Below, in pieces: positions 7,641 through 63,147 of a stretch of DNA of 64,000 nucleotides (position 1 is the first letter of the stretch; every line of letters starts with the position of its first letter). Source of the DNA: Deroplatys truncata. Its lineage: Eukaryota > Arthropoda > Insecta > Mantodea > Mantidae. The translations under genes and the position numbers were made by a program. Under the pieces are notes generated by a model. That model was not told where the DNA came from, searched no databases, and saw only the letters and a list, made by a program, of their open reading frames with translations. The DNA lies in NCBI GenBank assembly GCA_030765065.1, contig CM060979.1, positions 14,289,001 through 14,353,000 of the forward strand. The letters are read 5' to 3'.

Positions 7641-9813
7641 TTGGGGCAAAAGTCATGGCAACTATTTATTTTCTTGAAGATACCAGTCTGGTTGGAAAAT
7701 GTGACATATACAGACAAAAGAATAAGGTGTTAGCTACCTGTGTGGACAACAAATAGCACTGAAATATCGCAATGCACTAATTTATTACGGTAGTAATAGG
7801 GCAATATGGCCTTCACGGTGCAAAAGAATGACAGCATGGTATACATACAGTTGACACGACAAACCTGGGCCTAAAGTAGTCCCCTGCTACTGTCACCACA
7901 CGCTGGGAGGCGCTGAATACCATCTGCCTCAGCATTTGCCGCACCATGTGTGAATTGGGTCACCTGTTCGCGCACAGCATTAGCAATGTCCTCTTGTGTT
8001 ACAAACCGCCTACCACGTAGTGGTTCCTTAATCTTTCGAATGAGATCAAAGTCACAGGGTGAAATGTCCGGAGAGCACGGTGGGTGCTCCAATTCTTCCC
8101 ATCCCCAACGTCGCAGTACCTGCCCTACACACTTTGCTTTATGTGGTTTTGCATTTCTCGTGCAGGATTATTGCTTTGTCCACAAGATCCGGACGTTTCT
8201 CCCGAACGCCACGTCATACCTGTTGCACCAGGAAGTTCCTGTAGTACTGTATGGTCACTGTTCTGCATGTGGAACAAAGTGGGCGGACTGACGTTTCAGT
8301 TCTGGTTCGTATGCCCTGGCCCAAAATTCATCGATGGTGATTATTCGTGACAAGAATTGATCGCTGACCTGTTGCCAGCGTGCAAGGTGGTCAGAGCATA
8401 TTGTATAGCGCATCCACCTTTGAACTTCCGTCAGTGCATGCAGTACCCACCGCGATGCGATTTTGCGTAGTTGCAGCTCATTATACAATATCCTGTGGAC
8501 GGTGCATTTCTCAATACCACTTGCCATCTCTAACTCCATTAGTGTCCATGGTCTATCTTCATTCAGGAGCTGCTCGATGACGGCACGTGCCACGTCGGTC
8601 CGCACACTGACAGGTCGTCCCGAACGTTGCTCATCACTTGCTGAAACTTTCCTTCCCACCGTGCTACTGTACGGTAAGGTAGGGCATTATTCCCAAGGGC
8701 TTCCACTAATTCACTGTGACATTTCATCGCATTTCTCCCCATGAGAAATTGATGTAAGCGTGCTGCTCAACACTGGTTATTTCCATCTCGCACGACACTC
8801 ACGAACTAACTGATTTCACAGCCCTCACTGTTCTAATACCAGCTATCACAGAGCCATCTGTTGTTCTGCATACACACTATACCTGCAGAACTCCACATGA
8901 CACATATGTTTGTGATCCGTTCACATATCTACAAGTAAAAAAAATCTGATGTGTTACACTCACATGATTTTCTCTACTCTTGTACAAACTATTTTTACAA
9001 ACGCTTATTCTCCATATGCTTCATGTTAATTGAGATGTCAATCTTATTGATAATTTTCTTGTAGATGCAAGGGGAATATGGTAGGTTTTAAGCGATAGTC
9101 AAATCTTTTAAGAGCTGGTTGCTATGTGGCGCATTCCATTCTTTTTGCATGTCCAGGACATAAAAAAAATGAATAAGAATTTGAGAAAAAGTATAAGTAT
9201 TGGAAAATTTAAGGGAATAACAAGCAATATGTCGAGAACGGTTCACTCAACAAAAGATATGTGTATGACATCAATTGTGTATTTTATCGCGATCTACATT
9301 TTTCGTGTAGTAAAATTTTGTCTATCTCTTATGGTTTACCATTATGCAAAAATCGTTCACGATGAAGAATACTTTTGGAGACATTCCCAGAAAATTCGAG
9401 ATATACATTTCATTTCTCATGACAATATCTTAAACATATCATATTTTAATCAAAATCGTTAGAGCCATTTTTGAGAAAATTAAAATTTTCGAAAAATGTT
9501 TTATGTAAAGGGTAGTCTGGGGTGGGGGATTTTCTTGAAAACCTTCGTGTCGCATCTCTGGAAGATACTGAACCTAAATACCAAGTTTGGTGTTTATCCG
9601 ACTGTTCATTTCTGATTTATGCTGTTCACAGACACGCACGCAGACAGACACACACATGGACATGTTTCCAAAAATGCTTTTTTTGGATTCAGGGTGTCTC
9701 AAAACATATATTTCCGGTGAAATCTCGGTATCGAATTTTTGGGTGGAATACAATACTTCCCCTACTTACTATACGTAGTAGAGAAAGTAAAAATAGTTGC
9801 CATGACTTTTGCC
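7641..9813 (-). mobile_element. mariner transposon, internally deleted, split by a HINE
   Basis: The ends are matching inverted repeats: TTGGGGCAAAAGTCATGGCA at 7641 and its complement ending near 9813. The minus strand carries a mariner transposase in pieces. The N-terminal HTH region (8744-8580) reads ELVEALGNNALPYRTVARWE. A central part (8659-8255) includes SGRPVSVRTDVARAVIEQLL and IITIDEFWARAYEPELKRQS. The C-terminal part (8092-7871) includes EHPPCSPDISPCDFDLIRKI. A piece of the catalytic core is missing between 8255 and about 8130, and a frameshift lies near 8640, so it is not functional. A HINE interrupts it close to its right end. Confidence 0.88.
8934..9788 (-). mobile_element. HINE/DINE-1-like element inserted in a mariner
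   Basis: A near-complete copy, starting AAAATCTGATGTGTTACAC at about 8938 and ending TACGTAGTAGAGAAAGTAAA. It contains a CA/CAGA microsatellite at 9631-9657. Comparing the two mariner ends shows that it entered the inner edge of the right inverted repeat (flanks ctacaagtaaa and atagttgccatgac), an AT-rich target. Confidence 0.8.
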
Positions 9814-10972: not shown

Positions 10973-11326
10973 GGAAACACACCCACGTTTACTCCATATT
11001 CATGCTTCCTGATACTGCAAAGGGTAGGGTATCAACCTAATTGCCCCACCCGATTGGGAATCTAACGTGGTTGAGAAACCAGAACACGATCCCTTGGCTA
11101 CAGGTGCAGTTCACTCCATTCTTATAGTAACACATTTAAATGAATTTCATTATATAGTTAATCAGCTAATAATGCTCACAATGGTTGTAGTATCTAATAA
11201 AAATAATAATATTAACTTTCTATTAATTTCTTCAGAAGATGAGTTCCAATAAAATAAACTTCATTTAAAATAAAGAGAGTTGAAGGTTGTTACACTACAT
11301 CGCTAAACTGTTCTTACTTGAACGCG

Positions 11327-11356
11327 TTTCGGGAGACGGTTTGCTCCCATCGTCAG
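11327..11356 (-). ncRNA. Hammerhead-ribozyme-like core in a Penelope end
   Basis: On the minus strand the segment reads CTGACGA, a GGGAG...CTCCC stem, then GAAAC. It has the same layout as the three copies in the other Penelope family of the window, with a compensatory change in the stem (A-T there, G-C here). Penelope-like elements are known to carry hammerhead ribozymes in their terminal regions. One extra U lies between CUGANGA and the stem, and stems I and III are not clearly canonical, so the assignment is tentative. Confidence 0.45.
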
Positions 11357-11935: not shown

Positions 11936-12586
11936 TCTTGAAATATGACATGAGATGCATTTACCAAAAGCAACCAGATAAATCAGCAGTAGCACATCAT
12001 TTCTGGTCTTCAAACCATGATCTCACTCCGAACATAAAACTCTTAAAACCGCTCAACAGCAACAATGAATTGGACATCTGGGAAAAAAAAAATACATATC
12101 GTCAAACACAGGAATCATCTAATGAATTTCGAACTGCCACCACCCAGCAGTCTTTGGAGGTTCATCAGCCCAGCACCAGAGAACACCACTAGCCACACAC
12201 ATTCCCCAGACAATAACCAGCAAAATCAGTTGAAAACATGGGAGCAAACCATCTCACGAAACACGTTCAAGTAAGAACATTTTAGTGATGTAGTGTAACA
12301 ACCTTCAACTCTCTTTGTTTTAAATTATGATACATCACTGTTACTAGCTTCTAAATCTTCAAAGTTAATTAATAAAATAAACTTATTCTTATCAATAATT
12401 TGAGCAGTTGCTAGCTTTTCTATAAGGGTTTTTTATTAGGTCTACAGTAATATGTAGTTAGTAAAGGCTGTTTTAAATAATTTAGCAAACATTAGTCCAA
12501 AAGTATGAAGCCTAATGGGCAATGAAAATTATGTAATAAACTAGAAAATATTCAACTTATAGTGAAGCTTTCTTATGGTGTTACAG

Positions 12587-16059: not shown

Positions 16060-17067
16060 TCAATTTAATACACATTGCCCAACGTTTCTCCAGGTTTTTA
16101 ACCTTCCAAAAAATATGATTTTTTTGAAGTCTGTAAAATATGAGATTATTTCTGCCATGGTGTGTTCACTGGATGTGAATTTCTTCCCAGCAAGCCATTT
16201 TTTTAGTTTTACGAAGAGAAAGAAGTCGCTCGGAGCCAAATCTGGAGAATATGGTGGGTGAGGTAGCAGTTTGTAGCCCCACAAATTTTGCAATGGCAAT
16301 GGCTGACTTGTGTGCAGTGCATTATCCTGGTGAAAGAGAACCTTTTTTTTCACCAAATGGGGCCATTGCTTTAACAGTTCCTTGTGAAACTGATCCAGCA
16401 TTGTGGCTTAATATGAACCTGTGATCGTTTTAGCTTTTTACAGGTAGTGGATGTCTATCACCCGTTGTGAATCCCAAAAGACAGCTGCCATGATTTTTCC
16501 TTCCAATGGAATGGTTTTTGCTTTTTTTGGAGCAGGTTCGCCTAAGGAAATCCACTGTTTTGATTGTTTTTTGATTTCAGGTTGATAGTAATGGACCCAA
16601 GTTTCATCAACCGTGATACAACACTGCAAAAACGCATTTGGGTTGCGCTGGAACATTTTCAAACATCCTTGTGATATGGTCACACAATTCCGCTTGTTCT
16701 CAACTGTGAGCAGTTGCGGCACCCATCTTGCTGACAGCTTTCTCATACCCAAAAATTCGTGCAGAATGTTATATACCCGTTCACTCAAGATGTTTACGGT
16801 CTTGGCTATCTCACGGATTTTCACTCGGTGGTCTTCTAACACAGTATCGTGAACTTTGTTCACCATTTCTTCTGTTGTGACCTCACCAGCCATCCTGTGC
16901 ACACGGCATCTCTTGTACTCGAACGGCCACATCGAAATTCTGTGAACCATGTCATGTGATGGAGCAGAGTCCCCATAATACTTGTTCAGCTTTTCTTCCG
17001 TTTCCTTCACCGTCTTACCACACAAAAAGTAGTACTTTTTCAGAACACGAAATTCACTTTTCTCCAT
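16060..17067 (-). pseudogene. mariner transposase, interrupted
   Basis: A nearly full-length mariner-family transposase (cut-and-paste DDD enzyme). It starts MEKSEFRVLKKYYFLCGKTV, runs through the HTH half (GEVTTEEMVNKVHDTVLED) and the linker (LSARWVPQLLTVENKRNCVT), and reaches the first catalytic Asp in CCITVDETWVHYYQPE. A stop occurs at 16438, a frame change follows, and the second half contains LFHQDNALHTSQP (second Asp) and HPPYSPDLAPSDFFLF (third). It ends at 16060. I could not find convincing terminal repeats. The stop and frameshift make it inactive. Confidence 0.88.
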
Positions 17068-19645: not shown

Positions 19646-20613
19646 AAAAAAATCTGATGTGTTACACTCACATGACTTTCTCTACTCTTGTACAAACTAT
19701 TTTTACAAACCTTATTCTCCATCTATTTCTTATTAATCGAGATAAGCATTTGCAGAAACGATCTTTTGACATGCAAAGAGAATTACATTTCACACATAGC
19801 GACCAGTTCTAAAAATATTTGACTAGCGCTTAAGGCGTATTATGTTCCCCTTGTTTTGTATTTGCAAGGGCAATATAGAAAAACAGTAGCCTTTAAGTGT
19901 AGACATATCTCTTAATAGCTGGTTGCTAGGTGCAGCACCATTCTCTTTGCCACAGATTATAACTCTTTGCATATCCAAGACAAAAAAAATGAATAACGAA
20001 TTCCCATTTGAGAAAATAAGTATTGAAAAATTTAAGGGGATAACAAGCAATATCTCGAAAATGGTTCAGTCAACAAAAAAAATGTATATGACATAAATTG
20101 GTATTTTAACCCGATCTACATTTTTTGTGTAGTAAAATTTTGTCTATCTGTTTTGGTTTACCAGTTATGCGAAAGTCGTTCACAATGAAGAATACTTTTG
20201 GAGACATTCCCAGAAAATTCAAGATATACATTTTATTTATCATGAAAGTATCTTAAACATATGATATTTTAATCAAAATTGTTAGAGCCATTTTTGAGAA
20301 AATTAAAATTTTCGAAAAATGTTCCATGTTAAGGGTAATCTGGGGTAGGGGGATTTTCTTGAAAACCTTCGTGTCGCATCTCTGGAAGATACTGAACCTA
20401 AATACCAAGTTTAGTGTTTATCCGACTGTTTGTTTCTGACTTATGCTGTTCACAGATACACAGACAGACACACACACACGGACATGTTTCCAAAAATGCT
20501 TTTTTTGTATTCAGGGGGTCTCAAAACATATATTTCCGGTGAAATCTTGGTATCAAATTTTTGTGTGGAATACAATACTTCCCCTACTTACTATACATAG
20601 TAGAGAAAGTAAA
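19646..20613 (-). mobile_element. HINE/DINE-1-like element, full length
   Basis: A complete copy from AAAATCTGATGTGTTACAC to the reversed 5' end (ATACATAGTAGAGAAAGTAA). It includes the alternative middle block (GATCTTTTGACATGCAAAG, TAGCGACCAGTTC) also present at 52636 and 61310, and a short CA microsatellite at about 20457-20480. Confidence 0.8.
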
Positions 20614-22734: not shown

Positions 22735-26640
<3,906 letters not shown>

Positions 26641-27874: not shown

Positions 27875-30031
27875 TTGCCAGGTATCAGTGACCACCATTG
27901 TGTGCAATTAGAAGTAAACTGGGGGGGACGATTAAACCGGTTTGAATTAGAACAAACATCAATTAGCTGGAATTTCCAGAAAGCGGACGGGGCTGCTATT
28001 CAGAATTTTCTACGCGAGCAATATTGGTCTTTCGTAAAATCTGCCACTAGTGTAAATGAAGCCTGGGCTAGTTTCAAAACACTTACTTCGGAAGCAATTA
28101 TGAAACATGTACCTTTTAAAGTTATGAAAAATAACGCTGATCCAGAATTTTATACAAAACGTATTAGGTCACTTAAAAGGAAAACAAGGCGCGCGTATCA
28201 TAAAAGGAGGAAATCAGAATGGCATTTTATTAAATTTAAAGAATTAACCAAGAATTTACAAAACGAAAAGTTGCAAGCGCAGGAGCGGTTTTTAGAACAA
28301 ATTTTAAATAAGGAAAGTGATGGATGGAAAGCATTTTACAATTATGTGAGGAGACGCAGGGGTAATAAAGAAGGCATACCAGATTTCAAAGTTAACGGGA
28401 CTGCCGTAATAAATGATAAGGAAAAGGCGAACATATTAAATGCACATTTTGTATCGGTCTTTCATCAAATGGATGATAGTCCTGAACGGGAAAATAGGAG
28501 TGGTGGAGAATCGCTTTTTCAAATAATGGCGCCAAAATTACGTAAAAGGATCAAGATGCTACAGAATCGAAAATCAAGAGGGCCGGACAACGTACCTACT
28601 GAAATATTAAAAATAGGGGGAGAAGCCATGATTCCCTACCTAATGCTATTGTTTAACATGTCAATTAACAACCGTGCACTACCGGAAGACTGGAAATCCG
28701 CTATTGTAGTTCCAATATACAAAGGGGGTAATAAAACAGAAATAAATAATTATCGGCCTGTTAGCCTAACGTCGGTAGTGTGTAAAGTAATGGAGCATCT
28801 AATTGCAGAATACATACGGGAGGATTTAGAAAACAAACAGTGGTTCAACAAAGCGCAACATGGGTTTAGATCCGGGTATTCATGTGAAAGTCAAACAACT
28901 TCATTAATTCAAGATTTGGCAGATGAGGTGGATGCAGGGGGAAGGATTGATGCAGTGGTGATAGATTTTTCTAAAGCTTTTGACGTAGTGCCACATAGTT
29001 TACTCATCCGGAAACTAGCAAATGCGGGACTTGATAATCGCGTTGTATTGTGGGTAGAACAATTTTTGAAAGGGAGGACGCAAAGAGTAAGAGTAGGTAG
29101 AGAACTGTCAGAAGGGGGGACCGTAAGTTCGGGCGTGCCCCAAGGCTCGGTACTGGGCCCGTTACTGTTTCTTATCTTTGTTAATGATATCCATATAAAC
29201 ATTAAATGCCAGATAAGACTGTTCGCAGACGATTGTATTATTTACAATAAGATTAGGAATTCCATGCATGAGACTGCTCTTCAGGACGACCTAAATGAAA
29301 TCAGGCGGTGGGCCGAAGCAAACAAAATGACAATTAATGCTGGGAAAAGTAAGTCCATTGTTTTTAGCAGAACTAAGGGGAAGATTATACATAACTATCA
29401 AATGGGCAGGGAACCAATTCCACAGGTGGACAGCTGCAAATATTTGGGAGTGTGCTTGTCAAGTAATGCTGGATGGGGGGAACAGATAAATAGTACATCT
29501 AGGAAAGCGTGGAAAGCATTGCATTTCGTAATGAGAATACTGAAAAAGGGGAGCGCAAAGACCAGGGAACTAGCCTACAAATCTTTAGTGCGGCCGGTTA
29601 TGGAATATGGAGTAGCATGTTGGGACCCATACAGAGTCAATCAGATTGATTCCTTAGAAAAAGTGCAGAGAAGGGCTATAAAATTCATAAGGAGAGGTAA
29701 AGATTTTGGGTTTACAAAAGGTGAAGAGAATGAATGGGAACCGCTAAAAGTTAGGCATAAAAAACATAGATTAGTTGCGTTATTTAAAGCTTATACTGGT
29801 TCAAATGCTTGGGCGGATGTTAGAGAAAGGTTAGAGAATCCAGCACACTACGGTCGAAACGATCATCTGTTTAAAATTAGGGGTAGAAAGTGCAGAACCG
29901 ACGTGGGAAAATTTTCTTTTGTTAATAGAACCATTGAGGAATGGAATGAATTGCCTGTAGCAGCCTTTCAGGGCTGTCCTCTGACCTTAAAGCAGTTCAG
30001 AAATAATATTAGCGGAATAAATGTTGGTTAA
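27875..30031 (+). CDS. LINE reverse transcriptase ORF2 fragment
   Basis: 718 codons, open throughout. The ATG is not the original start: the frame opens in the last motif of the AP endonuclease (PGISDHHCVQLEV, the SDH box) and the rest of the domain was lost by 5' truncation. The reverse transcriptase follows: NNYRPVSLTS (about 291-300), HGFRSGYSCESQ, motif A VVIDFSKAFDVV (361-372), motif B SSGVPQGSVLGPLLFLIFVN (418-437), catalytic LFADDCIIY (449-457) and CKYLGVCLS. The C-terminal region (SLVRPVMEYGVACWDPY, LEKVQRRAIKFI) is typical of arthropod CR1/Jockey-type elements. The catalytic residues are present, so decay is slight, but without the endonuclease it cannot mobilise itself. Confidence 0.9.
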   Translation: MPGISDHHCVQLEVNWGGRLNRFELEQTSISWNFQKADGAAIQNFLREQYWSFVKSATSVNEAWASFKTLTSEAIMKHVPFKVMKNNADPEFYTKRIRSLKRKTRRAYHKRRKSEWHFIKFKELTKNLQNEKLQAQERFLEQILNKESDGWKAFYNYVRRRRGNKEGIPDFKVNGTAVINDKEKANILNAHFVSVFHQMDDSPERENRSGGESLFQIMAPKLRKRIKMLQNRKSRGPDNVPTEILKIGGEAMIPYLMLLFNMSINNRALPEDWKSAIVVPIYKGGNKTEINNYRPVSLTSVVCKVMEHLIAEYIREDLENKQWFNKAQHGFRSGYSCESQTTSLIQDLADEVDAGGRIDAVVIDFSKAFDVVPHSLLIRKLANAGLDNRVVLWVEQFLKGRTQRVRVGRELSEGGTVSSGVPQGSVLGPLLFLIFVNDIHINIKCQIRLFADDCIIYNKIRNSMHETALQDDLNEIRRWAEANKMTINAGKSKSIVFSRTKGKIIHNYQMGREPIPQVDSCKYLGVCLSSNAGWGEQINSTSRKAWKALHFVMRILKKGSAKTRELAYKSLVRPVMEYGVACWDPYRVNQIDSLEKVQRRAIKFIRRGKDFGFTKGEENEWEPLKVRHKKHRLVALFKAYTGSNAWADVRERLENPAHYGRNDHLFKIRGRKCRTDVGKFSFVNRTIEEWNELPVAAFQGCPLTLKQFRNNISGINVG

Positions 30032-30294: not shown

Positions 30295-30777
30295 TTTTAA
30301 AAACTTTGTTAATATTTAAGATTAATCATTTTGTATTGTTAGTCTTGTTTATTATTATTATTATTATTATTGTAAGCTAGTCATGGTGATGTAAATTTTG
30401 TACGGTTTAATTCTGCCACCGGGGAGTACCCAATTGCAGAATATAAATAAATACATACATTCATACATACATGAGATTTTATGATGTAGATTGAGTCATA
30501 CTTTTTTAAACTCACCTTCACTAATTAAAAGTTAAATAAAACAGAAATGTTTTTGAGGGCATTCGTCCTCATCGTCAGCGACTGGGTGACTGGGTTAATA
30601 GTGCTTCTGTTTTTAATCTTTAATGAGATTTTATTCTTTTATGTTTATTTAACATCTTACAAATCCAATTACATGAGCTATAAGTTGTATTATCTGCAGT
30701 ATAATAATATATTTCATTTCTATGTTGACTATTACAGCATGTTTCTGTGTATGACTGTAGGTATGGCATAATTGCAG

Positions 30778-36330: not shown

Positions 36331-37250
36331 CGTATGGGAGCCAATTTGTCGCAGTAACTTCGTGTTATCTTATTGCTGAGCGCCTGTTATTGTTTTACTA
36401 CTTTGAATGTTGGGTTCTTTGTCCTCTGGCTAGCTATTATTACTACTCAGTCGAGCATGTCTCATGAACAGGGTGTGTAAATGGAAAGGATTTTTACTGA
36501 AAGATAACACTTATAAAAGAATTTGTTTTTAAATTTTTATTACCGTCACAATTAATTAATTTCACATATTGACTCTTGATACACGCCAGACTGAAACTGT
36601 TATAATTTCTAATATCACTATAATCACTTATTTGCTGCACATTATTAATTTGCGTATTTCACATTTGTAACTAACTTTACAACGCCAGAGATTCTGTAGA
36701 ATTGCGCGACGTATAACGCGTGAACGATTCTCTTAAACTGTGCGACGTATAACCTTTGTATGATTCTGTTGGACTGAACGACGTATTACCCGCGAATCCT
36801 TCTGTTGGACTGAACGACGTATTACCCGCGAATCCTTCTGTTGGACTGAACGAAACCTGTCTCTGGCACGGAATTTATACTCCCTCACCCGATATGCCTA
36901 AAGATTATAACCGAGCTGCTATTGGTTAATAAAACGCGCCAACATTAGCGTCTATATTTATATCCAATCAGAATTACAAACACGTATGCTCTAGGGAAGA
37001 AATTCCCTCCATTTCTAAAGAAACGTGCGCTACTCTGACATCATTTGCTTGTCTCTAATAATTGATAAACAACTCACCCCCTCGCTCATTGTTGCCCGCT
37101 CTTATTGTCAGTTTTAATGAGGCCGTGTAAACTTATTTCCTAACAATGCTTATAATTAACAAACATCTCAAATCATTGTCATACAATAATGCTTATTTAC
37201 ACTACAATCACTCTGGCATTTACATTGTTGTGATATAAAATACTGCCACA
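36331..37250 (-). mobile_element. LTR with PBS-like flank, related family
   Basis: On the minus strand the LTR begins TGTGGCAGTATTTTATATC (37250), sharing its first bases with the TGAGGCAGTATTTTTA family. It ends near 36355, immediately followed by AATTGGCTCCCATACGTGGG (PBS-like; 36331-36354). It contains a four-unit 36-bp tandem array. It is a solo LTR: no gag or pol follows. Confidence 0.6.
36706..36849. repeat. 36-bp tandem repeat, four units, inside an LTR
   Basis: Units start at 36706, 36742, 36778 and 36814 with cores GCGACGTATAACGCG or ACGACGTATTACCCGCG. The last two are identical. Confidence 0.9.
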
Positions 37251-37821
37251 ATGCAAAGAGTGTTACAATTATGTGTAGTGCAGACTACTAGCCTCCTGTG
37301 AAACAATATTTACATTTAAAACCCTTGTCGTTTAGTCAAAACAGGAGTGTGCACCTTTAAATAAGTTGTAGTAATACTGTAATACATGTTTATTGTTAAG
37401 TAGTTTATATTTTGTGTATGAGTTTAAATGCTAAAAACGTATGACTAAATTGTTTATTAATTTATTTGGAGTTAAGGTAAACTAATAGGATTTTTGTACT
37501 GGTTTATAATGAATCTTTAAATTAGAAAGTTTATGTCCTTTCTATTCTAGTCTTTCTCTACTACACATAGTAAGTAGGGAAAGTTTGCATTCCACCCAAA
37601 AATTTGATACATGGTATTTGAGTTTAACATCTTTCAAGGATGCGACATGCAGATTTTCAAGAAAATCTCCCACTCTGGTCTACCCTTTACATGCAACATT
37701 TTTCGAAAACTTTGATTTTCTCAAAAATGGCTCGTAACGATTTTGATTAAAATATCATATTTTATTTAAAGGTGAGTCGAAATTGTTACACTAACATCAC
37801 TTAAGTTTACTCACTTAACAT

Positions 37822-37851
37822 GTTTCGGGAAACCGTTGTTCCCATCCTCAG
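37822..37851 (-). ncRNA. Hammerhead-ribozyme-like core, Penelope 3' end
   Basis: Minus strand: CTGAGGA, then GGGAA...TTCCC, then GAAAC, followed by a possible stem (TTAAGT...ACTTAA). It lies just after the polyprotein stop. See the covarying copy at 11327-11356. Cleavage activity is inferred, not shown. Confidence 0.5.
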
Positions 37852-37855
37852 AAGG

Positions 37856-40360
37856 TTAACTCGACTGGCCCGTGTTGTTGGTGTTTCCGTTTTTTGGACT
37901 GGATCCTGTGGTGGCATCTTGTGGTGGAGAAATGTACTTCCAGAGAGGATTTGGTGGCGGCAAATCAAAATTCATTAGATGTGTGTTGTGTTTTAGAATG
38001 GTGATCTTCTCCCATGCATCTAATTCGGCTGCAAATTTGGCTGGTTTGACTAATGTAATATTGGGTTTGATGTTGTGATTAGTGATCCAAAAATGGTGTG
38101 AAACTGCAGATTTGTCCATTTGTTTGTATTTAATACATCTCATGTGCTCCTTTAGCCTAGTTTCTAGGTTTCTTTTTGTCTTACCTATGTATACTTTATT
38201 GCAATCTGAACAATTGATTTTATAGATTCCAGCTTTTTTGTCTTGTGGAATGGGGTCTTTTAACTTGTTACAAAGTAATTTCTCTATGTTAAATTTGTTC
38301 TGTGGAGCTAGGCTGATGTTATGTTTCATGAAAATCTTCTTAAATTTGTGAAATGTTCCTGGGTGGTATGTGAATTTCTTGAACTTTAGTTCTTTATCTT
38401 GCTGGCTGAGATTAGTTGTGTTTCTGATGTGCATCTGTCGTTTGAATTTTGCAATTTTTTTGTCAATAGTTGCTTTGTTGTACCCATTATGTATTGCTGT
38501 GTCTACTATATGCTGGTATTCTAACTGGTATTCTTTTTTATTTAAGGGGGTATATACCAGTCTATGTGTTAGGCTGTTTAGTACTGCATGTTTGTGTGTG
38601 GTTGGATTGAAACTCTTATTTTTTATGTAATTAGTAGAGTGTGTTGGCTTCCTGTATATGCCAAAGGTTAGGTTCTTTTGTTCTCTGATGATTTTTAGGT
38701 CTAAAAATGGTAGCATGCCTTCTTTTTCTATTTCTATGGTGAATTTTATTGATTGGTTCTGTAGGTTTAGTAAGGCTAAGGAGTCTTGTATGAACCTATT
38801 AGGGACAACAGCGAAGATGTCGTCAACATATCTGTGCCAAACTTTAAACATGTATGGAAAGGAAGTTGTTATGTGTATTTCTAAGTAGCTCATAAATAAA
38901 TCTGCCAAGAAGGGTGAAAGTGGGTTGCCCATGGTTAGACCAGTTGGTTGTTGATAGAACTTCTTATTGAAACTAAAACAATTTTGTCCAATGCATAAAT
39001 TGGTAAGTTGTATGAGGTCTTCTATTTCTTCTTCAAGTAGGTTAGTCTGCTGTAGCCATTTCTTTAATTGACGCAGGAGTTGATCTGTAGGGACACTTGG
39101 AAATAGTGCAGTGACATCAAAGGAAACTAATCTGTCTTCTGGTTCGAGTTCCAGGGATTTTATCTTCTGTATTAAATCTTCTGAATTCATTATGTTTTTG
39201 CTGTTGAATTTTGGTAGTGAAGAGAATCTCTGTACTAACCATTTTGCCAGTTTGTAGGTAGGAGAATCAATATTGCTGACGATTGGTCTCATCTTATTAC
39301 CCGGTTTGTGTATTTTAGGTAGAGCATACATTCTTGGTAAAATGGGGTGGTCTGGTTTTAATCTAGATTTATCAGTGTCTGTTATAGTTTTGCTTTCCTG
39401 GATGGTTTGATTGAAGGCTTTTAAATGTGATTTTAATGGGTCTTCTTGAATTTGTATGTAATTTTCTTGTTGCAGCATATTTTCTACTCTGGTAATATAA
39501 TCATCTTTTTGAAGTACAACTAGTTTATTTCCCTTGTCAGCTTTTGTGTATACTACTGGTTTTGATTTTAATGTTTTGATCACATGTTTGGTTGGGAAAT
39601 TGTTATGTTTATCTGCTTGTATTTCTTGGAGAACTATTTCACATTCTTTTTTTATAGTGGTTTTACTATTTTCATTTAGGTTGTAAGTAGCAATCTCAAT
39701 GTCTGCGACTATTTCATCGGTTGTTTTTGTGTAGCCAACACATGTTTTTAGGCCAAGGTTTAATACCGATAATTCTGCTTTGGTGAAAGTTACATTTGAA
39801 AGATTAATTACGTCAGAGTATGGCGTCGTTTTTTCATTTTTTAGGTTAGGTTTATATGAATGTTGCTTCCGGCGTAGTATGTCTAGTTTTTTCTTTAATT
39901 TCAGCGTTTTTGTTTTCATCCTGTAGCTAAGAATAGTGAGGAATTTTGATTGCATGTTTTGCCAAAGTGGATAGCCGAGTGTGTCCGTTAATTTAAGGTG
40001 AAGAGCATATAATTCCAGTTCCAATTTTTGTAATTTTGCGTAGTGGTTGTTTCTCTCAATTATTATTACTTTTTTATCGGCTGATGTTTGGTGTTTGCTG
40101 TTTTTGTCGTATTTTACAATTCTCCTTACAAACTTTGGTGTGACTTTGCTTTGTATGCATAGGTTTAAAAAACGGATGTCCGCAAATGTGTTTTTTCTTT
40201 TTTCTTCAATTTTTTGGTATCTTTTGATGTCACTTTTTATTCCACTGAAATCTGTATTGAAATTTAGGGTTTCTAATCTTACCTTGTTTTTTGCCATGAC
40301 TTGCATCTTTTCCACGTGGTGGCCAATTATTAATTTTGCTTCTTGTGACTTGTTGGTCAT
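37856..40360 (-). CDS. Penelope-like polyprotein (RT + GIY-YIG), intact
   Basis: 834 codons without interruption. Residues 1-200 are a Lys-rich N-terminal region. The reverse transcriptase spans about 250-620: TKADKGNKLVVLQKDDY (272-288), ALPKIHKPGNKMRPIVS (346-362), motif A SFDVTALFPSVP (413-424), motif B GLTMGNPLSPF (474-484), catalytic RYVDDIFAVV (510-519), LPFLDLKI (550-557) and IYRKPTHSTNYI. A linker follows, and the C-terminal GIY-YIG endonuclease has GIYKINCSDCNKVYIGKTKR (711-730) and the RLKEH and HHFW motifs. All diagnostic residues of both enzymes are present, so the protein may be active. The start codon at 40360 opens 50 bp inside the element's upstream terminal region. Confidence 0.95.
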   Translation of the reverse strand: MTNKSQEAKLIIGHHVEKMQVMAKNKVRLETLNFNTDFSGIKSDIKRYQKIEEKRKNTFADIRFLNLCIQSKVTPKFVRRIVKYDKNSKHQTSADKKVIIIERNNHYAKLQKLELELYALHLKLTDTLGYPLWQNMQSKFLTILSYRMKTKTLKLKKKLDILRRKQHSYKPNLKNEKTTPYSDVINLSNVTFTKAELSVLNLGLKTCVGYTKTTDEIVADIEIATYNLNENSKTTIKKECEIVLQEIQADKHNNFPTKHVIKTLKSKPVVYTKADKGNKLVVLQKDDYITRVENMLQQENYIQIQEDPLKSHLKAFNQTIQESKTITDTDKSRLKPDHPILPRMYALPKIHKPGNKMRPIVSNIDSPTYKLAKWLVQRFSSLPKFNSKNIMNSEDLIQKIKSLELEPEDRLVSFDVTALFPSVPTDQLLRQLKKWLQQTNLLEEEIEDLIQLTNLCIGQNCFSFNKKFYQQPTGLTMGNPLSPFLADLFMSYLEIHITTSFPYMFKVWHRYVDDIFAVVPNRFIQDSLALLNLQNQSIKFTIEIEKEGMLPFLDLKIIREQKNLTFGIYRKPTHSTNYIKNKSFNPTTHKHAVLNSLTHRLVYTPLNKKEYQLEYQHIVDTAIHNGYNKATIDKKIAKFKRQMHIRNTTNLSQQDKELKFKKFTYHPGTFHKFKKIFMKHNISLAPQNKFNIEKLLCNKLKDPIPQDKKAGIYKINCSDCNKVYIGKTKRNLETRLKEHMRCIKYKQMDKSAVSHHFWITNHNIKPNITLVKPAKFAAELDAWEKITILKHNTHLMNFDLPPPNPLWKYISPPQDATTGSSPKNGNTNNTGQSS

Positions 40361-40460
40361 AAATTACGTATGTATTGTAATGAAAAGAAGCTAGAAACAG
40401 TGATGTGTATTGAATTTATTTAAAGGTGAGTCGAAATTGTTACACTAACATCACTTAAGT

Positions 40461-40784
40461 TTACTCACTTAACATGTTTCGGGAAACCGTTGTTCCCATC
40501 CTCAGAAGGTTAACTCGACTGGACCGTGTTGTTGGTGTTTCCGTTTTTTGGACTGGATCCTGTGGTGGATCTTGTGGTGGAGAAATGTACTTCCAGAGAG
40601 GATTTGGTGGCGGCAAATCAAAATTCATTAGATGTGTGTTGTGTTTTAGAATGGTGATCTTCTCCCATGCATCTAATTCGGCTGCAAATTTGGCTGGTTT
40701 GACTAATGTAATATTGGGTTTGATGTTGTGATTAGTGATCCAAAAATGGTGTGAAACTGCAGATTTGTCCATTTGTTTGTATCC
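40461..40784 (-). pseudogene. Penelope pseudo-LTR: C-terminal fragment
   Basis: The last about 90 codons of the polyprotein (YKQMDKSAVSHHFWITNHNI and onward) in the same orientation as, and upstream of, the full copy. A one-base deletion near 40568 changes the final residues. It supplies the upstream pseudo-LTR. It breaks at 40782-40788 against the inverted copy through a short TATCC(A) microhomology. Confidence 0.85.
40477..40505 (-). ncRNA. Hammerhead-ribozyme-like core, upstream pseudo-LTR
   Basis: Second copy of the CTGAGGA - stem - GAAAC motif, 130 bp upstream of the polyprotein start. In this position a self-cleaving RNA would define the 5' end of the element transcript. Confidence 0.5.
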
Positions 40785-40786
40785 AC

Positions 40787-42904
40787 TATCCACTTTGGCA
40801 AAACATGCAATCAAAATTCCTCACTATTCTTAGCTACAGGATGAAAACAAAAACGCTGAAATTAAAGAAAAAACTAGACATACTACGCCGGAAGCAACAT
40901 TCATATAAACCTAACCTAAAAAATGAAAAAACGACGCCATACTCTGACGTAATTAATCTTTCAAATGTAACTTTCACCAAAGCAGAATTATCGGTATTAA
41001 ACCTTGGCCTAAAAACATGTGTTGGCTACACAAAAACAACCGATGAAATAGTCGCAGACATTGAGATTGCTACTTACAACCTAAATGAAAATAGTAAAAC
41101 CACTATAAAAAAAGAATGTGAAATAGTTCTCCAAGAAATACAAGCAGATAAACATAACAATTTCCCAACCAAACATGTGATCAAAACATTAAAATCAAAA
41201 CCAGTAGTATACACAAAAGCTGACAAGGGAAATAAACTAGTTGTACTTCAAAAAGATGATTATATTACCAGAGTAGAAAATATGCTGCAACAAGAAAATT
41301 ACATACAAATTCAAGAAGACCCATTAAAATCACATTTAAAAGCCTTCAATCAAACCATCCAGGAAAGCAAAACTATAACAGACACTGATAAATCTAGATT
41401 AAAACCAGACCACCCCATTTTACCAAGAATGTATGCTCTACCTAAAATACACAAACCGGGTAATAAGATGAGACCAATCGTCAGCAATATTGATTCTCCT
41501 ACCTACAAACTGGCAAAATGGTTAGTACAGAGATTCTCTTCACTACCAAAATTCAACAGCAAAAACATAATGAATTCAGAAGATTTAATACAGAAGATAA
41601 AATCCCTGGAACTCGAACCAGAAGACAGATTAGTTTCCTTTGATGTCACTGCACTATTTCCAAGTGTCCCTACAGATCAACTCCTGCGTCAATTAAAGAA
41701 ATGGCTACAGCAGACTAACCTACTTGAAGAAGAAATAGAAGACCTCATACAACTTACCAATTTATGCATTGGACAAAATTGTTTTAGTTTCAATAAGAAG
41801 TTCTATCAACAACCAACTGGTCTAACCATGGGCAACCCACTTTCACCCTTCTTGGCAGATTTATTTATGAGCTACTTAGAAATACACATAACAACTTCCT
41901 TTCCATACATGTTTAAAGTTTGGCACAGATATGTTGACGACATCTTCGCTGTTGTCCCTAATAGGTTCATACAAGACTCCTTAGCCTTACTAAACCTACA
42001 GAACCAATCAATAAAATTCACCATAGAAATAGAAAAAGAAGGCATGCTACCATTTTTAGACCTAAAAATCATCAGAGAACAAAAGAACCTAACCTTTGGC
42101 ATATACAGGAAGCCAACACACTCTACTAATTACATAAAAAATAAGAGTTTCAATCCAACCACACACAAACATGCAGTACTAAACAGCCTAACACATAGAC
42201 TGGTATATACCCCCTTAAATAAAAAAGAATACCAGTTAGAATACCAGCATATAGTAGACACAGCAATACATAATGGGTACAACAAAGCAACTATTGACAA
42301 AAAAATTGCAAAATTCAAACGACAGATGCACATCAGAAACACAACTAATCTCAGCCAGCAAGATAAAGAACTAAAGTTCAAGAAATTCACATACCACCCA
42401 GGAACATTTCACAAATTTAAGAAGATTTTCATGAAACATAACATCAGCCTAGCTCCACAGAACAAATTTAACATAGAGAAATTACTTTGTAACAAGTTAA
42501 AAGACCCCATTCCACAAGACAAAAAAGCTGGAATCTATAAAATCAATTGTTCAGATTGCAATAAAGTATACATAGGTAAGACAAAAAGAAACCTAGAAAC
42601 TAGGCTAAAGGAGCACATGAGATGTATTAAATACAAACAAATGGACAAATCTGCAGTTTCACACCATTTTTGGATCACTAATCACAACATCAAACCCAAT
42701 ATTACATTAGTCAAACCAGCCAAATTTGCAGCCGAATTAGATGCATGGGAGAAGATCACCATTCTAAAACACAACACACATCTAATGAATTTTGATTTGC
42801 CGCCACCAAATCCTCTCTGGAAGTACATTTCTCCACCACAAGATGCCACCACAGGATCCAGTCCAAAAAACGGAAACACCAACAACACGGGCCAGTCGAG
42901 TTAA
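40787..42904 (+). CDS. Penelope-like polyprotein, inverted 5'-truncated copy
   Basis: Open from codon equivalent about 130 (YPLWQNMQSKF) to the normal stop. An apparent start at 40751 reads through the junction and is accidental. As far as I can compare, the about 705 shared residues are identical to the minus-strand copy, including the YVDD and GIY-YIG motifs. It lacks the N-terminal region. The DNA forms an inverted repeat of about 2.2 kb with 37768-39974, with an interval of about 0.8 kb. Confidence 0.92.
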   Translation, partial: YPLWQNMQSKFLTILSYRMKTKTLKLKKKLDILRRKQHSYKPNLKNEKTTPYSDVINLSNVTFTKAELSVLNLGLKTCVGYTKTTDEIVADIEIATYNLNENSKTTIKKECEIVLQEIQADKHNNFPTKHVIKTLKSKPVVYTKADKGNKLVVLQKDDYITRVENMLQQENYIQIQEDPLKSHLKAFNQTIQESKTITDTDKSRLKPDHPILPRMYALPKIHKPGNKMRPIVSNIDSPTYKLAKWLVQRFSSLPKFNSKNIMNSEDLIQKIKSLELEPEDRLVSFDVTALFPSVPTDQLLRQLKKWLQQTNLLEEEIEDLIQLTNLCIGQNCFSFNKKFYQQPTGLTMGNPLSPFLADLFMSYLEIHITTSFPYMFKVWHRYVDDIFAVVPNRFIQDSLALLNLQNQSIKFTIEIEKEGMLPFLDLKIIREQKNLTFGIYRKPTHSTNYIKNKSFNPTTHKHAVLNSLTHRLVYTPLNKKEYQLEYQHIVDTAIHNGYNKATIDKKIAKFKRQMHIRNTTNLSQQDKELKFKKFTYHPGTFHKFKKIFMKHNISLAPQNKFNIEKLLCNKLKDPIPQDKKAGIYKINCSDCNKVYIGKTKRNLETRLKEHMRCIKYKQMDKSAVSHHFWITNHNIKPNITLVKPAKFAAELDAWEKITILKHNTHLMNFDLPPPNPLWKYISPPQDATTGSSPKNGNTNNTGQSS

Positions 42905-42908
42905 CCTT

Positions 42909-42937
42909 CTGAGGATGGGAACAACGGTTTCCCGAAA
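42909..42937 (+). ncRNA. Hammerhead-ribozyme-like core, inverted copy
   Basis: CTGAGGA, GGGAAC...GTTTCCC, GAAAC immediately after the stop codon of the inverted copy. It matches the other two cores of this insertion. Confidence 0.5.
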
Positions 42938-43585
42938 CATGTTAAGTGAGTAAACTTAAGTGATGTTAGTGTAACAATTTCAACTCACCTTTAAATAAAT
43001 TCAATACACATCACTGTTTCTAGCTTCTTTTCATTACAATACATACGTAAAATATCATATGTTTAAGATATTTTCATGGCAAATGAAATTTATATCTTAA
43101 ATTTTCTGAGAATGTCCCAAAAAGTCCTCTTCATTCTGAATGACTTTAGCACATAACTGGTAAACCGTAAGAGATAGACAAAATTTTACTACACAAAAAA
43201 TGTAGATTTCGTTAATACACACAATTTATGTCATATACTTTTTTTTTTTTTGGGTTGAGTGAACCATTTCTAGATATTCATTGTTATTTGTTTGAATTTT
43301 GCAGTACTTATACTTTTTCCCAAATGGGAATTTAATATATATATATCTTGGACATACAAAGAGAATGGAATGCTCCACATAGCAACCAACGCTTAAAACA
43401 TTTGACTATTGCTTAAAGCCTAGCATATTCCCCTTGCACCTACAAGAAAATTAGCAATAAGATAGTTTCTACAAATGTTTATCTTAATTAAAATGAAATA
43501 GTTGGAGAATAAGCATTTGTAAAAACGGTTTTTACAAGAGTAGAGAAAGTCATGTGAGTGCAACATATCAGATTTTTTTTAGACA

Positions 43586-53493: not shown

Positions 53494-53544
<51 letters not shown>

Positions 53545-53675
53545 CATGTTTCCAAAAATGCTTTTTTTGGATTCAGGGGTCTCAAAATATATATTTCCGG
53601 TGAAATCTCGGTATCGAATTTTTGGGTGGAATACAATACTTCCCCTACTTACTATACGTAGTAGAGAAAGTAAAA
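52636..53675 (-). mobile_element. HINE/DINE-1-like element with an enlarged CA tract
   Basis: Complete copy from TCTTATGTGTTACACTCACA to the reversed 5' end (TACGTAGTAGAGAAAGTAAA). Middle block as in the copy at 19646. Its internal microsatellite has grown to about 94 bp and become compound. Confidence 0.82.
53449..53542. repeat. Compound (CA)n/(CACG)n/(CCCA)n microsatellite
   Basis: CA units, then CACG-, CCCA- and GCACGCA-type units, then CA again. It lies at the standard microsatellite position of a HINE copy. Confidence 0.9.
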
Positions 53676-55571: not shown

Positions 55572-56325
55572 GATTTTTACTTTCTATATGGCGTACATAG
55601 TAGGTAGAGAAGGTATTGCATTGCACCCAAAAATTTGATACTGAGATTTCACTTGAAATACATGTTTTGAGGCTCCCTGAATCCAAAAATACATTTTTAC
55701 TTTCTCTACTACATATAGTAAGTAGGGGAAGTATTGTATTCCACCCAAAAATTCGATACCGAGATTTCACTGGAAATACATGTTTTGAGATCCCCTGAAT
55801 CCAAAAAAAGCATTTTTGGAAACATGTCCGTGTGTGTGTGTCTGTGTGTCTGTCTGTGAACAGCATAACTCAGAAACGAACAGTCGGATAAACACCAAAC
55901 TTGGTATTTAGGTTCAGTATCTTCCAAGGATGCGACACGCAGGTTTTCAAGAAAATCCCCCCACTCCAGATTACCCTTTACATGGAAGATTTTTCGAAAA
56001 TTTTAATTTTCTCAAAAATGGCTCTAACGATTTTGATGAAAATATCATATGTTTAAGATATTTTTATGACAATTAAAATGTATATCTTGAATTTCCTGGG
56101 AATGTCTCCAAAAGTATTCTTCATTGTGAACGACTTTTGCATAACTGGTAAACCATAAGAGATAGACAAAATTTTACTACACAAGAAATGTAGATCGCGT
56201 TAAAATACACAATTTATGTCATATACATTTTTTTTGTTGAGTGCACCATTTTCGAGATATTACTTGTTATTCCCTTAAATTTTTCAATACTTATTTTCTC
56301 AAATGGGAATTCGTTATTCATTGAG
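55572..56325 (+). mobile_element. Two HINE 5' ends in tandem
   Basis: 55572-55695 is a 5' fragment (ACTTTCTATATGGCGTACAT, TGCACCCAAAAATTTGATAC) truncated before the CA tract. It is followed at once by a second copy (55697-56325: ACTTTCTCTACTACATATAG, CA/TG tract at about 55830-55852) that breaks off in the 3' half at GGGAATTCGTTATTCATTG. Confidence 0.75.
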
Positions 56326-57309: not shown

Positions 57310-58999
57310 CGAGGTGCATTCAAGTTATAACACCTCCGATTCTTTTTCTCACTAACTAATCACATGAAAATTATGAAGCTTGTGTCACTTCTTGACGTAA
57401 TCTTCCTGCAGCCGTAAACATTTTTCGCAACATTGACGCCATGATTCCATGGCCGCTGTGAATGCTTCTTGAGGAGTCTGTTTTGACCACTGGAAAACCG
57501 CTGATGCAATAGCGGCACAGCTGGTGAATGTGTGGCCGCAGAGAGTGTCTTTTATCATCAGAAACAGCCAAAAGTCGCTAGGAGCCAGGCTGGGTGAGTA
57601 GGGAGCATGAGTTGTTTGCACAAAGAAACTGCTATGTAACGTTCGCCCGATGTGCTGGTGTGTTTTCTTGGTGAAAGAGCACACGTGCAGCCTTTTCCGG
57701 CCTTTTTTCACGCAATACTGGAAGGAGTTTCTTCTTCAAAACATCTTCGTGGGATGCACCTGTCACCGCAGTTCCCTTTGGAATGCAATGAGTAAGGATT
57801 ACGCCATCGCTGTCCCAGAGCATGGCCACCATCATTTTTTCAGCACTGGCGCTTACCCGAAATTTTTTTGGTGTTGGTGAATCTGTGTGCTTCCATTGAG
57901 GAGACTGGCGCTTCGTTTCTGGATTGAAAAACGGCATCCACGTCTCATCCATTGTCACAATTGATGAAAAGAAAGTGCCATTCATGCCTTCATCTTGCGT
58001 CAACGTTGCCTGGCAACATGCCTCGCGTGCAGCCTTGTGATCATCCATCAGTATTCGTGGCACCCACCTGGAGGACACTTGTCGCATTTTCAGTTCGTCA
58101 TGCAGGATTGTGTGCACAGATCCCACGGAAATGCCATGTGTAGGCGATCTGTTCCACAGTCATTCGGCGATCCTACAAAACAGGTTTCTCCACTCGCTTG
58201 ATCATGTCATCAGACCGGCTTGTCCGAGGTCGAGATTCTCTTGGTTTGTTATCACACGACGTTCTGCCTTCTTTGAACAAACGCACATTAGACACACCCA
58301 TGACACCATCACCACATGTCGCACTTAACTGGCGATGAATTTCAATTGGTGTCACACGACGTTCCGCCTTCTTTGAACAAACGCACATTAGACACACCCA
58401 TGACACCATCACCACATGTCGCACTTAACTGGCGATGAATTTCAATTGGTGTCACACGACGTTCCGCCTTCTTTGAACAAACGCACATTAGACACACCCA
58501 TGACACCATCACCACATGTCGCACTTAACTGGCGATGAATTTCAATTGGTGTCACACGACGTTCCGCCTTCTTTGAACAAACGCACATTAGACACACCCA
58601 TGACACCATCACCACATGTCGCACTTAACTGGCGATGAATTTCAATTGGTGTCACATGACGTTCTGCCTTCTTTGAACATATGCACATTAGACACATCCA
58701 TGACACCATCACCACATGTCGCACTTAACTGGCGATGAATTTCAATTGGTGTCACACCACACAAATGTAGATAACGAATGATTACACGCTGATCATGTAA
58801 TGAAAACGTCACCATTTTAATATACAAAACAATCCTCACTCTTGCTGTTGCCATGAGAGGTTCTGCTGACATACAGTGCTACCATCTCTGTCATGCATTA
58901 GCAAAGAGTGCCTGCTTACTTTAAAACAAACCGCATGCTTCTATTTGTTTCCACTTCTGAGAAAAAAAATCGGAGGTGTTATAACTTGAATGCACCTCG
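57310..58999 (-). mobile_element. mariner transposon with complete TIRs
   Basis: Inverted repeats of at least 31 bp (CGAGGTGCATTCAAGTTATA at both ends) with TA duplications (57308-57309, 59000-59001). The minus-strand transposase starts about 58860 (MATARVRIVLYIKMVTFSLH) and continues HTH VTPIEIHRQLSATCGDGVMG. A five-fold 100-bp duplication follows, then SVHTILHDELKMRQVSSRWV, catalytic SSIVTMDETWMPFFNPETKR, VAMLWDSDGVILTHCIPKGT, LFHQENTPAHRA (Asp to Glu at the second catalytic position) and HAPYSPSLAPSDFWLF. The duplication, frameshifts and catalytic change show it is inactive. Confidence 0.9.
58252..58757 (-). repeat. 100-bp tandem array inside a mariner transposase gene
   Basis: Five units of exactly 100 bp (starts near 58252, 58352, 58452, 58552, 58652). 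The inner ones look identical and the outermost differ at a few positions. Each unit codes for the HTH stretch TPIEIHRQLSATCGDGVMGV followed by RLFKEG, so the period shifts the frame at every unit. Confidence 0.95.
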
Positions 59000-61309: not shown

Positions 61310-63147
61310 AAAAAAATTCTGATATGTTACACTCATATGACTTTCTCTACTCTTGTACAAACTATTTTTCCAAACTCTTATACTACATCTATTTCATATT
61401 AATCAAGATAAACATTTGCAGAAACAATCTTTTGACATGCAAAGAGAATTATATTTTACACATAGCGACCAGTTCTAAAAATATTTGACTTTTGCTTAAG
61501 GTGTACTATGTTCCCCTTGTTTTGTAATTGCAAGGGCAATATATCAATACTGTAGCCATTAAGCATCGACATATATCTTAATAACTGGTTGCTAGGTGCA
61601 GCACCATTCTCTTTGCGAATCCAAGACAAAAAAATCTGATGTGTTACACTCACATGACTTTCTCTACTCTTTTACAAACTATTTTTACAAACGCTTATTC
61701 TCCATCTACTTCATGTTAATCGAGATAAACATTTGCAGACTCTATCTTATTGCTAATTTTCTTGTAGATGTAAGGGGAATATATATTTACAAGGGCAGTA
61801 TCAAAATACAGTAGCCTTTAAGCACATACATATCTCTTAATAGCTGGTTCCTAGGTGCAGCACCATTCCCTTTCCCACAGATTAATACTCTTTGCATATC
61901 CAAGACAAAAAAATGAATAATGAATTCCCATTTGAGAAAATAAGTATTGAAAAATTTAAGGGAATAACAAGTAATATCTCGAAAATGGTTCACTCAACAA
62001 CAAAAATGTATATGACATAAATTGTGTATTTTAACGCGATCTACATTTCTTGTGTAGTAAAAGTTTGTCTATCTCTTATGGTTTACGAGTTATGCAAAAG
62101 TCGTTCACAATAAAGAATACTTTTGGAGACATTCCCAGGAAATTCATGATATACATTTTATTTGTCATAAAAAATCCTAAACATATGATATTTTAATCAA
62201 AATCGTTAGAGCCATTTTTGATGAAATTAAAATTTTCGAAAAATCTTCCATGTAAAGGGTACTCTGGGGTGGGGGGATTTTCTTGAAAACCTTCGTGTCG
62301 CATCTCTGGAAGATACTGAACCTAAATACCAAGTTTGGTGTTTATCCGACTGTTCGTTTCTGAGTTATGCTGTTCAAAGACAGACACACAGACACACACA
62401 TGAACATGTTTCCAAAAATGCTTTTTTTGGATTCAGGGGGTCTCAAAACATGTATTTCCGGTGAAATCTTGGTATCGAATTTTTGGGTGGAATACAATAC
62501 TTCCCCTACTTACTATACGTAGTAGAGAAAGTAAAAATAAATAACGAATTTCCATTTGAGAAAAGTATTGAAAAATTTAAGGGAATAACAAGCAATATCT
62601 CGAAAATGGTTCACTCAACAAAAAAAATGTATATGACATAAATTGTGTATTTTAACGCGATCTACATTTTTTGCATAGTAAAAGTTTGTCTATCTCTTAT
62701 GGTTTACCAGTTAAGCAAAGTCGTTCACAAAGAAGAATACTTTTGGAGACATTCCCAGAAAATTCGAGATATACATTTTATTTGTCATGAAAGTATCTTA
62801 AACATGTAATGTTTTAATCAAAATCGTTAGAGCCATTTTTGAGAAAATTAAAATTTTCGAAAAATGTTCCATGTAAAGGGTAATCTGGGATGGGGAGATT
62901 TTCTTGAAAACCTTCGTGTCGCATCTCTGGAAGATACTGAACCTAAATACCAAGTTTGGTGTTTATCCGACTGTTCGTTTCTGAGTTATGCTGTTCACAG
63001 ACACACACACGGACATGTTTCCAAAAATGCTTTTTTTGGATTCAGGGGGTCTCAAAACATGTATTTCTGGTGAAATCTCGGTAACGAATTTTTGGGTGCA
63101 ATACAATACTTCCCCTACTTACTATACGTAGTAGAGAAAGTAAAAAA
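61310..63147 (-). mobile_element. HINE copy split by a second HINE
   Basis: The outer copy consists of 61310-61632 (3' part, TCTGATATGTTACACTCATA to CCAAGACAAAAAAA) and 62536-63147 (5' part, AATAAATAACGAATTTCCAT to TACGTAGTAGAGAAAGTAAA). Joining them restores the block order of other copies. A short CA tract lies at 63001-63010. Confidence 0.85.
61633..62535 (-). mobile_element. HINE inserted into a HINE
   Basis: A complete, apparently young copy: TCTGATGTGTTACACTCACA to TACGTAGTAGAGAAAGTAAA, with a CA/CAGA tract at 62381-62400. It entered the poly-A (T-rich on the other strand) stretch of the outer copy, consistent with the TT targets of Helentron-related elements. Confidence 0.85.

Follow-up and report, generated by a model that had tools for sequence, protein, structure and literature searches.

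Minimal type I hammerhead ribozymes have reportedly been found in metazoan Penelope-like elements (PLEs) and Terminons by Cervera & de la Pena in 2014 and by Lunse et al. in 2017. In the available portions of later papers, these hammerheads are described as the same motif lacking helix III, located in pseudo-LTRs, present in thousands per genome and proposed to act as dimers (PMC7761336, PMC6155905, PMC7229834), a description that also fits the motif of the present case; judged by these descriptions in citing papers, the families reported below are new. In the passages accessible to us, the same reviews present PLE hammerheads as minimal motifs that possibly act as dimers and whose role is unknown (PMC7761336, PMC6155905, PMC7229834), and one calls the role "still a mystery" (PMC7761336). 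Poseidon PAc from Anolis carolinensis is likewise a PLE with the motif in its terminal repeat (PMC11167929). As far as that report is available, the PAc hammerhead is described with stems I and II only and its stem II opens with the ORF start; mutating the core left insertion in vitro unaffected, and RNA-seq showed no ends at the cut site (PMC11167929). For PAc, cleavage is reportedly abolished by either C3G or G8C and regained in part by the double change. Because the mutants inserted and RNA ends at the cut were not seen, the hammerhead role may be dispensable. Amphibian satellite hammerheads, in the descriptions at hand, have a weak helix III and are active as dimers, the same palindromic-helix-III dimer logic as here, and they sit in repeats of ~330-350 bp, not in RT-coding elements (PMC7229834, PMC6155905). 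Hammerheads in Penelope elements are therefore already known, and the motif described here is ordinary in kind. Since one genome holds thousands of matches across many lineages, constraint on the motif can be read position by position. The value of the present case lies in this depth of covariation within one genome, in an explanation of a non-canonical U through overlap with an AUG, in the tie to the dimer form, and in a donor-like sequence located beside the predicted cut.

The window, which is the whole 64-kb stretch of DNA analysed here, contains a family A Penelope-like insertion at 37761..43047. It consists of a minus-strand copy and a truncated plus-strand copy placed head to head, has inverted arms of 2214 nt at 100% identity, and is flanked by a 13-bp repeat, TAAAATATCATAT (37748-37760 and 43048-43060). 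The minus-strand copy carries an intact ORF of 834 aa encoding RT and GIY-YIG (37856..40360, minus strand; Pfam RVT_1 1.4e-11, GIY-YIG 1.3e-5), and a second, 5'-truncated copy of this ORF lies at 40751..42904 on the plus strand (RVT_1 1.1e-11, GIY-YIG 6.2e-6). The insertion thus shows the features of a PLE, namely a single ORF combining RT and GIY-YIG, tandem or inverted terminal repeats, and a target-site duplication. No relatives of the family A protein outside this genome were confirmed in genome_contigs or viral_contigs. When 54 distinct family A 3' sequences were compared, similarity ended 54-60 nt behind the reference start in 12 and 98-115 nt behind it in 28, while 11 reached the reference end and 3 ended elsewhere. 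Two 3' ends are thus preferred, which further supports PLE biology and is reminiscent of the pair of start sites for reverse transcription that the available part of the PAc work reports (PMC11167929). The window also holds family B, including a decayed inverted repeat at 12238..12325 (plus strand, read by eye) from which the core is deleted, so that CTGACGAT is absent.

Four sites in the window carry the motif. In the minus-strand copy of family A, the 3' hammerhead occupies 37817..37851 (minus strand; CUGAGGA-U-GGGAA..UUCCC-GAAA-CAUGU), with H17 = U at 37817 and the predicted cut just 3' of it, and the 5' hammerhead, in the upstream terminal repeat, occupies 40471..40505 (minus strand; H17 at 40471), 2,654 nt from the first. 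The plus-strand copy has its hammerhead at 42909..42943 (plus strand; H17 at 42943). The family B hammerhead is located at 11321..11356 (minus strand; CUGACGA-U-GGGAG..CUCCC-GAAA-CGCGU), with H17 = U at 11321. All four motifs named in the original prediction are present as described, and the compensatory change from A-T to G-C that it noted between families A and B is real and falls on stem pair 5. Its statement on the ends of the insertion needs one correction: the site at 40477-40505 lies inside the insertion, in the 5' terminal repeat that belongs to the minus-strand copy. The CUGANGA and GAAA core is found at all four sites, and a scan of the window for CUGANGA, a spacer of 0-2 nt, a stem no shorter than 4 bp and then GAAA returned exactly these four, with a Markov expectation of 0.2. 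Because the three family A sites are copies of one sequence, the window alone gives two families and one compensatory pair; further families were supplied by the genome.

A match to the Rfam hammerhead covariance models had been proposed as a check, and here the outcome was negative, which by the original prediction's own criterion speaks against it: nothing in the whole window scored above the gathering threshold, and two 301-bp stretches, one with a family A site and one with the family B site, gave no Rfam hammerhead at E<=10. These models would presumably penalise the absent stem III and an extra nucleotide after A9. The motif was therefore tested directly. The pattern CTGANGANGGN{8,16}CCGAAAC matched 16,069 times in the 4.29-Gb genome, and the reversed pattern 19 times; the first matches listed belonged mostly to families A and B. 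Freeing the third stem pair gave 381 matches versus 13 for the control, and freeing the second stem pair with ACATGT added gave 543 versus 2. Because the core letters were required by these patterns, the presence of the core in the matches is not an independent test. We also built a covariance model from 18 representatives that excluded families A and B. With this model, the four window sites ranked first, with E-values of 3.1e-7 at three sites and 1.7e-4 at one, and the next match had 0.011.

Stem II was analysed in the matches listed, which are a part of all genome matches. Conservation of the stem across family members was a test set by the original prediction, and pairing is kept far above the shuffled level: among the matches listed, at least 5 contiguous pairs form in 44 of 63 distinct sequences from the second-pair-freed search (1.3 when shuffled), and at least 5 pairs, one bulge allowed, in 34 of 46 from the third-pair-freed search (3.7 when shuffled), strings within one family not being independent in these counts. 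At the second pair, which the search left free, 51 of the 63 have A-T, 5 have T-A and 2 have C-G, with a mismatch or wobble in the other 5. For the 18 representatives without A and B, which were hand-picked and so biased toward good stems, the covariation score was 0.745 versus 0.234 shuffled (0/500 shuffles). A set of 15 representatives including A and B scored 0.389 versus 0.205 (0/500).

Stem II follows A9 directly in the canonical hammerhead layout, with no extra nucleotide between them. The motif departs from this layout, which is also that of Rfam, by one position. This extra position is T at all four window sites and, among the matches listed, in 55/63 and 41/46 distinct sequences, the remainder having another letter there since the patterns demanded one extra position; N7 varies (A 22, T 21, G 12 and C 8 in the 63). 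A9, the extra U and G10.1 of stem II spell AUG, so the U may be kept, at least in part, because it belongs to this AUG. The core AUG of family A (40497..40499, minus strand) opens, unspliced, a 12-codon frame, and in the family C copies examined the frame has 10-42 codons. In contrast, at one family D locus (L089) it runs without a stop for 508 aa, as far as the locus extends, and includes RVT_1 at E 2.4e-9; in the other D-type copies examined it stops after 27 to 246 codons. Thus the core AUG would open only a short frame in families A-C and the RT frame in family D, as in anole PAc. In 33 chosen strings, stops are 3 in 271 codons of the AUG frame, and 18 in 259 (biased by the fixed TGA) and 6 in 250 in the other frames. 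Twenty further 5' regions were read by eye: the core lies upstream of the ORF in 14 and is absent in 6, with GAAAC changed in L111, and ATG stands directly before ACCAAC/ACTAAC in 14 and not in 6. In 5 of the 63 sequences, TAA or TAG follows right behind the AUG and the U is still kept; AUG use therefore does not cover every case, and the U may also have a structural reason. Constraint from coding alone, that is, from the AUG and the first codons, would be consistent with the retention of an AUG from which, in one family D copy, the RT frame begins. We regard it as a very improbable reason for the whole motif, since the frames in families A and C are so short, stem II letters vary while pairing persists and covary across families, and the 3' repeat copy, which follows the stop codon, is non-coding. 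By our count the cut site is 29 after the AUG, compared with 26 bp in PAc, and unlike PAc, as far as its report is available, family A begins its RT frame elsewhere than at the core AUG, and a donor-like sequence follows (PMC11167929).

The palindromic stem III is a further difference, in families A and B, from PAc as described in the accessible part of that report (PMC11167929). In representatives of 11 lineages, the letters after GAA are ACAUGU in A, C, G, H, I, J and K, ACGCGU in B, and ACGU in D, E and F; the four window sites all have ACAUGU or ACGCGU. Every one of these representative segments is self-complementary and too short for a hairpin, and copies L062, L096, L101 and L103 depart from them. 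Since a self-complementary stem III is unable to fold back, two copies would have to pair. The cut-site triplet is GUU at all four window sites, which conforms to NUH. In hammerheads H17 is not G, and H17 is U, C or A, never G, in the 11 chosen lineage representatives; copy L001 has G at this position. If exactly one nucleotide is placed after the palindrome, the mean paired run of stem I is 2.06 in 17 rows; the other registers tried gave 1.06, 0.76 and 0.24, and re-dealing the partners gave 0.83. Of the 17 rows, 15 form the first pair, and E100 and F103 do not. In the 11 lineages, which we chose leaving out E100, F103 and four further subfamily rows, stem I has 26 contiguous pairs versus 9.0 when re-dealt (0 of 20,000). 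With E100 and F103 kept, the values are 26 and 10.1 (1 of 20,000), and the first pair forms in 11 of 13 rows, which was reached by 59 of 20,000 re-deals. Stem I is short, with 3 contiguous pairs in A, 2 in B and 1 in J. Folding of 60-63 nt pieces gave stem II, together with the palindrome in A and B dimers, and no complete hammerhead; a three-way junction was reproduced in 0/4 monomer folds.

This weakness of stem I, the monomer folds and the report, in its available part, that PAc RNA alone is uncleaved without protein (PMC11167929) are what would be expected of a real structure that is a protein-binding or replication hairpin, resembling a hammerhead and not catalytic now. However, a hammerhead specifically predicts a register with a single nucleotide, H17, between the palindrome and stem I, flanks that pair as stem I, and an H17 other than G, as in the 11 representatives. 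A binding hairpin would need none of these, and we consider such a hairpin improbable. The motif is very probably a hammerhead ribozyme of minimal type I, such as has been reported from PLEs. This reading is based on sequence, location, covariation, the stem I register and the AUG-RT frame in one family D copy. Hence the hammerhead-in-Penelope reading of the original prediction is supported by the genome count, stem II covariation, the stem I register and the model from other families. Its doubts about the extra U and about stems I and III are largely answered by the type I order, by a minimal stem III whose palindrome requires a second copy, and by the place of the U in an AUG.

As a type I hammerhead, the motif would run from the 5' strand of stem I, around the ORF stop, through CUGANGA, the extra U, stem II, GAAA, stem III and H17 to the 3' strand of stem I. 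Cleavage, dimer action and a role in processing are predicted from this arrangement. Two ribozymes in successive terminal repeats, or in two transcripts, would pair through stem III, and each paired ribozyme would cut after H17. Cuts in a tandem transcript would then release unit-length RNA of 2,654 nt. In the genome, a tandem array of family A repeats of about this spacing exists (L019-L025 on contig C7, near 245.06-245.08 Mb), with steps of 2,651-2,654 nt or double.

Past the predicted cut of family A lies GTGAGT (40463..40468, minus strand), a splice-donor-like sequence that starts at the third position after H17. A possible intron of 78 nt would end in ATCACTGTTTCTAG; its acceptor-like end, ACATCACTGTTTCTAG (40391..40406, minus strand), is also the 3' arm of the AGTGATGT..ACATCACT hairpin. 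GTRAG occurs within 34 nt 3' of GAAAC in five of the eight lineages with a 6-nt palindrome (A, B, C, I and J). It is absent 3' of the palindrome in G, H and K and from 7 of 7 other rows (D, E74, E100, F102, F103, L088 and L101), and of 16 rows compared over the 34 nt upstream, 1 contains it. An acceptor-like ATCACTGTT[TA]C[TA]AG is common to family A and four of the five distinct B copies that reach that far, and family I has TTTTTTCTTCCCAG as its acceptor-like sequence. Taken as a candidate splice site, the donor-like GTRAG just 3' of the predicted cut is suggestive, and it would link two oddities of PLEs, retained introns and ribozymes. That PLEs contain introns and retain them is known from the available part of one report (PMC3846280), and no link between ribozyme and splice site was found in the accessible portions of the open literature surveyed.

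A real intron with its 5' splice site 3-10 positions past the predicted cut, in one family group, would be compatible with the hammerhead. The bias of GTRAG to lineages with a 6-nt palindrome, the shared acceptor-like sequence and the introns known in PLEs argue for it, and we hold it tentatively, as a possibility that is doubtful. Against it, the spliced AUG frame of family A fails to join the RT frame: in silico and read by eye, 16 of 19 matches are out of frame and 1 is stopped, and the remaining 2 match the frame of the first codons and no further, since a frameshift precedes RT in those copies (the 19 matches come from partly overlapping loci, and copies may repeat). The genome holds no intron-less family A copy at up to 2 mismatches, although intron retention predicts the same. 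The acceptor shares sequence with a hairpin whose role may be in reverse transcription, and G, H and K are without the donor. It is rather unlikely that in one large PLE group a spliceosomal 5' splice site follows the cut site at a distance of 3-10 positions, with splicing and self-cleavage mutually exclusive. If it were so, splicing would give mRNA and self-cleavage of tandem transcripts would give an intron-bearing template of unit length, which would jointly explain why introns and ribozymes are both retained in these PLEs.

Other features of the window were also recorded. A dispersed repeat of the form CTGAATC (or CTGAATA)..hairpin..GGAAACATGT was rejected as a hammerhead, being without G8 and A9. 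Its copies are located at 9660-9692, 20482-20514, 53544-53576, 62404-62436 and 63013-63045 on the minus strand and at 55795-55827 on the plus strand; five of the six are identical across 33 nt, and a similar sequence lies beside the family I locus. At 30547-30578 (minus strand), CTGACGATGAGGAC..CCCTCAAAAACAT (E 0.011) may be a hammerhead that has decayed, its GAAAC being altered. Another retroelement lies at 27875-30031 (plus strand), with a 718-aa ORF (RVT_1 E 9.7e-34), and a mariner-like ORF at 16438-17067 (minus strand) has a partial DDE Transposase_1 domain and a Mos1 HTH domain. A perfect (CA)n repeat at 23382-26526 (3.1 kb, ~1,572 units, 100% identity) is unusually long and pure, and may be an effect of assembly. 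Tandem repeats are found at 58252-58757, with a unit of 100 bp (98% matches, 5.1 copies), and at 36690-36853, with a unit of 36 bp.
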